DNA from: Caulobacter sp. BP25
Lineage (GTDB): Bacteria > Pseudomonadota > Alphaproteobacteria > Caulobacterales > Caulobacteraceae
DNA: 64,000 nt
Direction: 5' to 3'
Assembly (NCBI RefSeq): GCF_002737755.1
Contig: NZ_PEGH01000017.1
Coordinates: 558,001-622,000, forward strand
Of the stretch, positions 25,676 through 58,197 are shown piece by piece. The notes beneath the pieces are model-generated. The model ran no database searches. It was not told the DNA's origin and saw nothing but the letters and a program-made list of their open reading frames with translations. Position 1 is the first letter of the stretch. Every line of letters starts with the position of its first letter. The translations under genes were made by a program, and so were the position numbers.

Positions 25676-26073
25676 GCGCTGAGGCCGAAGCTCAAGCCGC
25701 CGAGACCGCGTTCGACCAGATCGGCGGCGCGACCCGCGTCCAGGCGGTGGTCGAGGCCTTCTACGACCTGATGGACACCGACCCGGCCTATGCCCGCTTG
25801 CGGGCCATCCATGCGCCGGACCTCACCCCCATGCGCGCCTCGCTGGCGGGCTTTCTCACCGGCTGGCTGGGCGGGCCAAGAGACTGGTTCGCCGCGCGGC
25901 CGGGCGTTTGCATGATGTCGCTGCACCGGTCGATGCCGATCGACGCCGAGCTGGCGCGGCAGTGGACCGACGCCATGGGTCGGGCGCTGGATCAGGCGGG
26001 CGTGGAGGCGGAGATGGCGCAGGCGCTGCGCGAGGTGTTCGGGCGGATGTCGGGGAATATGACGACGCGGTGA
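25672..26073 (+). CDS. Group II truncated haemoglobin
   Basis: The 133-residue protein fits group II truncated globins. It has AFDQIGGATRVQAVVEAFYDLMDTDP, the proximal-histidine segment CMMSLHRSMPI and QWTDAMGRALDQAG with the group II tryptophan. These bind haem and react with oxygen or NO. The C-terminal end is short. It overlaps the CoA-transferase stop by four bases, so acid metabolism and redox sensing appear linked in one transcript. Confidence 0.88.
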   Translation: MSAEAEAQAAETAFDQIGGATRVQAVVEAFYDLMDTDPAYARLRAIHAPDLTPMRASLAGFLTGWLGGPRDWFAARPGVCMMSLHRSMPIDAELARQWTDAMGRALDQAGVEAEMAQALREVFGRMSGNMTTR

Positions 26074-26126
26074 GGGGGGCGGTGGAAGTCAGTGCCCCAC
26101 CCGAAGCTAGAAGAGATAAGCGGCAC

Positions 26127-26696
26127 CTAGGGTTCGCATTGCAATAGGTGTCGGATGGATGGGTACCAAGGACTGTCCCAGTTGCCATGAGGCGCCACGG
26201 CGTAGGCGACGTGGGCAATCAATCTGGACGTTCTAGCAGCCTTTTCCCGCAGGTTTCGCAGCTCAGTGCTATCTCGCTTTTTCTGATCTCGCGTCCTGCT
26301 AGCGACCACTTTCGACGGCGTTCCAAGGTCTGGGCCTGCTGTTTGCCCTCGAAACGTCACCCACTTCCCAAGCCAGAGCATCGACTCTCGGTAGTCTGCG
26401 TGAATGAAATCGTTTCTTTGTCGTTGAACCGCCTTAAGCTCTTGCACCGCGAGCGATAACGCGCGGGGATATTCTGGGTGTGGGCACCGACCCTTCATAC
26501 ACCCGGCCCAGGTGTCGATGGCGTCCTGTCCTCTCATTATTGAGTTCGCGGTCGGCCGATCGACATTCAGCACGCCGGTCAGCGATCTCGCCAGCTCGTC
26601 ATCAATCTGTCCGATTATGACCACCACCTCACCCAGTAGCGCCATTTCTTCGGCCATCAGCGGAATGTGATACGCAGCTTGCTCAGGTGTTTTCAT
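26127..26696 (-). CDS. Unknown orphan protein with HEPN-like RX4H motif
   Basis: I do not recognise a named family. The 189-residue product is predicted almost all-helical and contains VQRQRNDFIHADYRESM, where R-N-D-F-I-H gives the R-N-x3-H spacing of HEPN ribonuclease motifs. The C-terminal part is basic (RTRDQKKRD, NLREKAARTSRLI). No antitoxin-like gene is adjacent. Its codon usage looks less GC-rich than its neighbours, suggesting recent acquisition. ATG 26696 is chosen because GGTGGGG precedes it; a GTG lies three codons upstream. It faces the truncated haemoglobin gene, with an unusual repeat island on the other side. Confidence 0.6.
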   Translation of the reverse strand: MKTPEQAAYHIPLMAEEMALLGEVVVIIGQIDDELARSLTGVLNVDRPTANSIMRGQDAIDTWAGCMKGRCPHPEYPRALSLAVQELKAVQRQRNDFIHADYRESMLWLGKWVTFRGQTAGPDLGTPSKVVASRTRDQKKRDSTELRNLREKAARTSRLIAHVAYAVAPHGNWDSPWYPSIRHLLQCEP

Positions 26697-26854
26697 GTGC
26701 CCCACCGAATGTCGGCGGCATTGTAACGCTACAACCGCCTAGACGTCCTCGTTGCCTAGCCGATTGGGCTGATCTGGGAGGGGCGGTCGCTGGGAAGCGC
26801 GCCTCGTGAAATCCCGCTAAGCGTAGCCACGCGACCTCCCGAGGTCGGTGCGAA

Positions 26855-26999
26855 CCTTACATCTCTTGGAGGCTGCAGCGTGCAGGGCTGTCCGGGTTGG
26901 TCAAGGACCGCCCTCTGGCCGGCCGCCACGCGGCGGCGCTGCGCGCCGTCCTTGAGCAACCCGGTCAGCCCTGCGATCGTCTCGCCGTGAGATGTAAGG
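26855..26999. repeat. 145-bp imperfect inverted repeat
   Basis: The left arm (26855-26908) and right arm (26948-26999) are reverse complements in three blocks: CCTTACATCTC, GCAGGGCTG and CCGGGTTG followed by TCAAGGAC. The 39-bp loop is itself GC-rich. It lies about 160 bases from the start of the HEPN-like gene and just before a composite repeat. It shows no open frame with recognisable content; a MITE-like remnant or structured RNA is possible. Confidence 0.75.
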
Positions 27000-27040
27000 A
27001 TGGCTCCCGTCTTGGGGGACGGGTTTCACAGCGCTAATCG

Positions 27041-27815
27041 GCCGACGCCGCAGGCCCCCACCTGACCACGCTCCGCGTGGTCGTCCGCCCCCAAAGGGGG
27101 GCAGAAGGAAACGCGCCCCTTCTTCCCCCTCCGGGGAGGAGCGCCGCAGGCGCGGAGGGGGCAAGTACGAGCGTTCGCGGCGCTCTATGATCCGCGTATC
27201 CGGAATCGAACCGAACGATTTCAACCGCTTCCCACTTTTACGCGCCGCTGGATCATCCGCGTTGAAACCGCCCTTATGCTCTAACCACCTCGTCGCGAGG
27301 AAAGGGCGCATGGCCAGCGACCATCGTGGCGGCGGGGGGCGATCGAGCGGGGACAGGTTCGAGGGGGATACTCGGACGGTCCGGGGCTGAGCTTGCTGGG
27401 CTCACCCGCCCGCCGTCGGCGTGGTTGGAGGCAAAAGGGCGTGTTTGGCTGAAAGCCCGTCCTCTCCGACCGTTGGGACTCTCGGAAACGGGAGGCCCAG
27501 GTCCCGGTAAGGCCTGAACAGGGCCACCCGACGGGACGCTGGCGGATAACGATCGCGCGGAGCGTTCGGGCTTCGTCGAAACGGTATTTATCAAATTCTT
27601 CCGGACGGATGTCCGGCGCTCCGCATCCCTTTCCATCCCTTCAGCGAGCGATCGCGTGAAGCGGCGGAGGTGTGCGTGGGATTTGCCTTCTTCCCCCTCT
27701 GGGGGAGGAGCGCGCCAGCGCGGAGGGGGCGAGTAGGGAAAAGGGCCCGCCGACGCCGCAGGCCCCCACCTGACCACGCTCCGCGTGGTCGTCCGCCCCG
27801 GAGGGGGCGGAAGGA
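27041..27815 (+). repeat. Composite intergenic repeat, copy 1 (B-D-spacer-E-B)
   Basis: Parts in order: B-family copy (27041-27167); D unit 27197-27271; a spacer of about 366 bp without a convincing gene; E unit 27638-27662 (CCTTCAGCGAGCGATCGCGT plus GAAGC); and a rearranged B copy (27688-27815) with its halves swapped. A 51-bp stretch of the first half of B is identical at 27041-27091 and 27749-27799. The same order occurs inverted at 42210-43007. Similarity continues into the spacer next to D (GGCGGCGGGG, GAGCGGGG) and next to E (CTGGCGGA, CGAAACG). Confidence 0.7.
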
Positions 27816-42060: not shown

Positions 42061-42160
42061 CGGGCTCCAGGTTTCGTGATCGGAAAGGGAGCCCAGGCGC
42101 GCGGCTTATGCGTATCGAGCTCCCCGGTGGTCTCCCACCTTCAACGCCAGTCACTCGAAC
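42061..42160 (-). promoter_or_regulatory. ZTP riboswitch (pfl motif) upstream of purH
   Basis: On the minus strand the order is TCGAG, GTGACTGGCG, then GGTGG-GAGA-CCACC hairpin, then GGGGAGCTCGA (its CTCGA closes P1 with TCGAG), and after a short linker GCCGCGCGCCTGGGC. This is the pfl/ZTP aptamer order, including the conserved GGGAGC and the CGCCTGGGC pseudoknot strand. Downstream, GGGCTCC (42088-42094) is complementary to GGAGCCC (42062-42068), which contains the purH ribosome-binding site. That supports translational control: binding of ZTP or ZMP would tie up the GGGC strand and free the site. Confidence 0.88.
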
Positions 42161-42209
42161 GGGGCGGAAAATACGGGGGCTGGCGGGGGAGTCAATGCGG
42201 GCGTCCAGT

Positions 42210-58121: not shown

Positions 58122-58197
58122 TGGTGCCGCCTAGGTGACTCGAACACCTGACCTACGCATTACGAATGCGCCGCTCTACCGGCTGAGCTAAGGCGGC
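58122..58197 (-). tRNA. tRNA-Thr (anticodon CGT)
   Basis: On the minus strand the acceptor stem GCCGCCT pairs with AGGCGGC, the D-stem is GCTC/GAGC, the anticodon stem GCGCA/TGCGT holds loop TTCGTAA, and the T-arm is AGGTG TTCGAGT CACCT. The 3' CCA is encoded. The 34-36 anticodon CGT decodes ACG (threonine), a frequent codon in a GC-rich genome. Confidence 0.95.

Follow-up and report, generated by a model that had tools for sequence, protein, structure and literature searches.

In the window analyzed here, a 64,000-nucleotide stretch of the Caulobacter sp. BP25 genome, a globin gene is separated from a large imperfect palindrome by a foreign segment of 744 bp (26079..26822; GC 0.58) that is missing in the nearest relative, G150. 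This segment carries a gene on the minus strand (26127..26696) whose 189-residue product contains the hexapeptide RNDFIH. Its open reading frame extends from 26127 to 26705 and would comprise 192 codons from a GTG start, while the ATG at 26696, which yields 189 residues, is the preferred start. An earlier note on this DNA had singled out the gene, described as less GC-rich than its surroundings, together with a 145-bp palindrome beside it. Both are real: the reading frame bears the motif, its GC content (0.57) falls below that of the window (0.68), and the palindrome (26855..26999) folds far better than chance. Upstream of the gene, a dyad, TTGTAGCGTTACAA, at 26720-26733 is a possible operator. 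Elsewhere, a ZMP/ZTP riboswitch lies at 42084-42164 (Rfam RF01750, 61.6 bits), and when 744-bp stretches are compared across the window, only that at about 57400-58200 matches the low GC of the segment with the HEPN-like gene; its end lies close to a tRNA gene (58125-58197), and it is possibly another island.

The HEPN-like protein

HEPN domains carry an R-x4-6-H motif where helix 3 ends, and the arginine of this motif is followed by a polar residue, which may be N, D or H (Anantharaman et al., 2013, PMC3710099). The RNDFIH of the window protein, residues 97-102 in the 192-residue numbering, conforms to this superfamily pattern in both spacing and polar residue. Searches of Pfam, NCBIfam, PADLOC and PDB sequences returned no match to the protein, and 148 other genomes of the family contained no homologue of its gene. 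A class-wide search yielded a single homologue of 27% identity. Its gene, in a Telmatospirillum MAG (L042), is one of two loci recovered by a scan of species genomes, the other being L043, and profile searches uncovered further, more distant relatives; none was found on plasmids, phages or viral contigs. The R, N and H of the motif are kept in homologues L042, L043 and L047-L050. Across eight aligned relatives, with identity down to 15%, only G25, R97, N98 and H102 are invariant, and the R-N-x3-H spacing is thus the conserved core.

An AlphaFold2 model from three sequences (pLDDT 73.8) places helices at residues 18-46, 62-70, 79-97 and 147-170, such that R97 closes the third main helix and H102 sits in the loop beyond. 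Fold searches against the PDB and viral models returned generic helical bundles and no clear HEPN match, the best viral match being the unnamed A0A4Y5TZQ9 (TM 0.53/0.62, E = 2e-3). One distant relative matches HEPN_Cthe2314 below the cut-off (E = 0.026). The earlier reading of the protein as HEPN-like is supported by the invariance of R, N and H in the relatives, which includes the Arg/His pair that the note would have expected to vary if its reading were wrong, and the model places the motif where helix 3 ends; no HMM library recognizes the protein. As a HEPN-like protein, the product has good sequence support; by extension, it would be an RNase.

No MNT antitoxin gene lies beside the gene, and the 744-bp segment holds no second plausible gene. 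Reading of the open reading frames at L042 and L043 likewise revealed no MNT neighbor: the former adjoins a polyprenyl synthetase-like and a protease-like gene, the latter a lysyl-tRNA synthetase-like gene and an IS1595-like transposase. The product, solitary and horizontally acquired, is most likely a HEPN RNase that would cut RNA as a defense against invading phages or plasmids.

Architecture of the hairpin element

The palindrome is the core (26855..26999, plus strand) of a larger element bounded by two side hairpins. Its main arms (26882-26926/26930-26974) and outer arms (CCTTACATCTC/GAGATGTAAGG) assemble into three paired blocks with a folding energy of -101 kcal/mol (z = -8.2), as good as which none of 200 shuffles folded. 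Proceeding inward, an outer stem (26855-26865/26989-26999) is followed by an asymmetric internal loop, a main stem (26884-26908, with partners up to 26972) and an apical part of three small stems. The two sides of the internal loop, 26866..26883 (TTGGAGGCTGCAGCGTGC) and 26973..26988 (GCGATCGTCTCGCCGT), both given on the plus strand, are near-invariant in 36 aligned copies, in contrast to the variable stem that adjoins the left side. Side hairpin H3 (26832..26847, CGACCT-CCCG-AGGTCG) forms the cargo-facing end of the element and is present in most copies, often with a different sequence that nonetheless remains paired; H1 (27006..27023, CCCGTC-TTGGGG-GACGGG) forms the host-facing end. The same plan of common outer stem, conserved internal loop, variable main stem, apex of small stems and side hairpins recurs in 56 copies. 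Length variants occur as well: a 72-bp short form (L089 in G167) is missing the apical part and is host-like in GC on both sides, and long forms of about 180 bp (L008, L010, L013 and L090) harbor an additional module near GTCCCCCGGGACCGGCTTCGCCGGCCCGAGGG within the apex.

Pairing is conserved in the face of sequence change. In the alignment of 36 copies, pairing is intact in 95% of cells, both sides have changed in 18 pairs, and doubly changed cells number 138, as compared to 42 in shuffles. Of 720 main-stem cells, 682 are Watson-Crick and a mere six are G-T. This near absence of G-T pairs disfavors an RNA; a cruciform, a folded single strand of DNA or repeated arm-to-arm copying accounts for the pattern better. 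An RNA gene was accordingly rejected as a candidate, Rfam also returning nothing above the gathering score at the hairpin (the best sub-threshold match was to a miRNA model). No promoter-like match was found near it.

Distribution of the hairpin

By blastn, the genome itself holds about ten copies of the hairpin at full length, along with several partial ones. Of 37 genomes of the genus, 25 have copies; none was found in 24 genomes that represent other families of the same order, and none on plasmid or phage DNA. The hairpin at the window locus is not genus-wide, since G130 and G134 possess the globin gene with no hairpin downstream. A search of the open-access literature found no description of the element. 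Adjacent to it, GC-rich composite intergenic repeats at 27041-27167 and again at 27749-27807 (CCTTCTTCCCCCTCC..., GCCGACGCCGCAGGCCCCC...) are repetitive sequence separate from the hairpin, and also flank other hairpin copies.

One-sided, low-GC cargo

The HEPN-like gene sits on the H3 side of its hairpin, hereafter the left. When 35 copies were taken with 8-kb flanks and low GC was defined as below 0.62 within the 400 bp adjoining the hairpin, the left flank was low in 26 copies and the right in only two, against 5.6% of 808 distant control windows located more than 3.5 kb away; low GC here is a proxy for foreign origin, and the loci are not fully independent, several being orthologous. The left side also has a lower GC content than the right in 46 of 55 copies (Wilcoxon p = 2e-5). 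The low-GC stretches are 0.5-2 kb long and contain mostly one or two open reading frames in either orientation, most of which begin about 5-110 bp from the hairpin. Two orthologous hairpins devoid of H1 (L134 and L147) have their low-GC cargo on the right instead. At L180 in G150, where the orientation is reversed, a KAP-ATPase cargo, a full hairpin, a metalloprotease-like cargo with a HEIAH motif and a right-half hairpin follow one another.

A profile search revealed a second member of the HEPN-like family in the same genome (HMM E = 3e-7; hhalign 94.8%), which begins no more than about 10 bp from the edge of a different copy of the hairpin, its side and orientation matching those in the window. 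This second member, along with the GC pattern, led us to abandon an early reading in which gene and hairpin were unrelated neighbors.

Turnover of cargo at conserved sites

Comparison of orthologous sites separates the history of the hairpin from that of its cargo. Aligned by blastn to L052/L107, the window is homologous over 25900-26078 and again from 26823 onward, at 91-94% identity, with the foreign segment in between. In G150, which is about 93% identical, the globin gene is followed by some 12 bp and then the hairpin, whereas here 744 bp with the HEPN-like gene intervene; the 12 or so bases in G150 differ from the window sequence. An empty hairpin thus occupies the window locus in G150, and another is found at L150. 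Eight orthologous sites were compared between this genome and its sister G150. Both genomes have the hairpin at all eight, and at six the adjoining 190-590 bp on the left are unshared. Farther out, at 2-6 kb on the left, 94-100% is shared in seven of the eight, and a fraction of 0.59 in the remaining pair (L136/L151). At one locus compared across five species (L137, L152, L156, L161 and L163), the hairpin and the host gene to its left are common to all, and the five cargos, 0.8-1.9 kb in length, are unrelated. Since the hairpin is kept where cargo differs or is absent in relatives, it is the older, stable part at the compared sites.

BLAST among 45 cargo proteins detected no mutual relation except for one orthologous trio, and the examined cargos bear no recognizable transposase. 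Scanning 43 cargo proteins against Pfam (E <= 0.01) and PADLOC (E <= 0.001) returned, with most matches not tied to individual proteins, PDC-S20 (5e-81), PD-T7-4 (2e-54), KAP_NTPase (2e-36; QatA/PifA-type), DUF4062 (1e-28), DndB (3e-18; DndB/DpdB), HEPN_AbiU2 (1e-9), two DUF4145, PIN_10, AAA_15/AriA-like (AriA/GajA-like ATPase), DrmA-like, DUF5615 and DUF433. Many of these families are of the defense type, among them PD-T7-4, PDC-S20, KAP/QatA, DndB, AbiU2, DUF4145 and PIN-like. Profile comparison detected no relation of the window family to the AbiU2-like and DUF4145-like cargo. The strong impression from these annotations, formed on the cargo set alone and not a ratio, is that defense genes would be enriched.

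Cargo boundaries and candidate enzymes

Element homology begins at about one point in H3 at several sites. No common far end of the cargo was found at most loci, and no convincing end repeats border the cargo in the window. One candidate boundary was a 26-nt imperfect palindrome, approximately TGTCCGCnnnGGGTSGAAAGCSGACA, for which the background yielded no matches at the higher scores. It occurs to the left of the hairpin at L145, L148, L155, L159, L169, L177 (where three lie in a row) and L179, as well as at L214/L224. As a general boundary it was rejected, for its direct repeats enclose cargo at no more than 8 of the 54 loci, and in the window they are not clearly present. The motif also occurs away from hairpins and near three of the best matches to a 208-residue tyrosine recombinase, and may belong to a separate cassette system that has a site of its own and makes use of the slots as well. 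That recombinase was in turn considered as the mobilizing enzyme and set aside: it has matches in only 12 of 37 genus genomes, with no hairpin in the fetched loci, and so does not explain the slots.

A probable landing site for foreign genes

The hairpin is probably a stable, one-sided landing site for foreign segments of one or two genes, with the HEPN-like gene as one such cargo. A DNA element dispersed in this genus, and kept in position over the divergence of species, would provide the site. It behaves like an attachment site in that its position is stable, single-gene cargo changes on one defined side, and the folded DNA has conserved unpaired bases. Foreign segments would settle between the preceding host gene and H3, and would be replaced by other cargo over time while the hairpin stays. 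Insertion at the hairpin would then be site-specific; the recombining form, given a main stem almost devoid of G-T pairs, may be a folded single strand or a cruciform, and the recombinase would act on the slots in trans. Against a landing site speak the cargo on the opposite side at L134 and L147, the want of a recombinase tied to the slots, the lack of convincing end repeats around the window's cargo and the small share of loci (8 of 54) at which the 26-nt motif borders cargo. More tentatively, and with rather less than even confidence, the hairpin could serve as attachment site, attC-like but unrelated to attC, for a kind of gene capture not described before, in which a trans-acting recombinase inserts and exchanges single foreign defense genes on one side only.

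An unlikely but by no means negligible account does away with such an enzyme. The hairpin would be an ordinary REP- or MITE-like repeat near which DNA enters illegitimately at a replication-stalling palindrome, cargo being swapped by homologous recombination between flanks after transformation or by way of gene transfer agents. Palindromes can indeed provoke breaks, the well-conserved flanks suit such swapping, and no dedicated enzyme was found. Simple breakage, however, predicts no bias in side, yet cargo follows the orientation of the element, 26 left to two right among the 35 copies, and the onset of element homology at about one place in H3 at several sites is likewise at odds with it. Rather improbable is a single mobile unit of hairpin and cargo, in which the hairpin would be one transposon-like end and empty hairpins would have lost their cargo. 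The tight spacing of about 5-110 bp at many loci and the tandem arrangement of cargo, hairpin, cargo and partial hairpin at L180 are what such a unit would produce, but orthologous sites keep their hairpin haplotype with a different cargo in every species, the examined cargos have no recognizable transposase, and most loci offer no common far end. The idea of the earlier note, that the gene and the hairpin, or its RNA, form a toxin–antitoxin-like pair, is very improbable despite their adjacency and the second family member placed likewise, as a comparable hairpin is missing at the nearest homologues (L042 and L043), unrelated genes adjoin most hairpins, the hairpin stands without the gene in G150, and there is no promoter-like match nearby. 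What survives of that idea is that the juxtaposition is meaningful, in that hairpins mark slots for foreign genes; the two are not a dedicated pair.

Should the slots of the landing site hold exchangeable accessory genes, new defense genes could be found simply by reading the H3 side across the genus, and the HEPN-like gene would count among the many candidates, as yet unstudied, gathered there. Such slots would also pose a testable question, namely what inserts single genes at folded DNA without an integron. If the gene-capture version is true, each genome of the genus would have a set of exchangeable defense slots.

Comparison with known systems

Like the Cthe_2314-like, AbiU2 and HepT families, the window protein combines R-x4-H, an asparagine after the arginine and, in its model, a helical build with the motif ending helix 3. 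Unlike them, it has no adjacent MNT or other antitoxin gene, and it has no significant HMM match to any of the three.

The slots most resemble integron cassettes with their attC sites. Both involve single, promiscuous genes, often for defense, next to an imperfect palindrome; its stem stays paired although the sequence varies, its unpaired bases are conserved, and tandem arrangements occur in some cases. A HEPN protein associated with an integron has also been mentioned (PDB 3jrt; PMC3710099). However, the attC boxes R'' (RYYYAAC) and R' (GTTRRRY) are found at the hairpin foot in none of 56 copies on either strand, the element comprises about 145 bp and, in addition, two side hairpins, and the slots are scattered, for the most part singly at a locus, and keep their positions while the cargo changes.

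Among repeats, the CIR elements of Caulobacter and Brucella are likewise dispersed intergenic palindromic repeats of alphaproteobacteria; they measure about 110 bp, consist of two arms and have GANTC as a conserved methylation site (Chen & Shapiro, 2003, via PMC2229807). The hairpin is not a CIR repeat, as just 1 of the 56 cores contains GANTC and the core is about 145 bp; it also comes with cargo, an association not described for CIR in the consulted passages of PMC2229807. The REP, BIME and REPIN repeats and bacterial MITEs are likewise palindromic, non-coding and dispersed, and have short inverted repeats at their termini, but the hairpin differs in its conserved position between species and in the foreign cargo on one defined side. 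Finally, defense hotspots between core genes, for example in Pseudomonas aeruginosa (PMC10250203), are, like the slots, fixed chromosomal sites with changing defense cargo. What sets the hairpin slots apart is that a single genome has many of them, all with one common DNA element and usually with one or two genes each.
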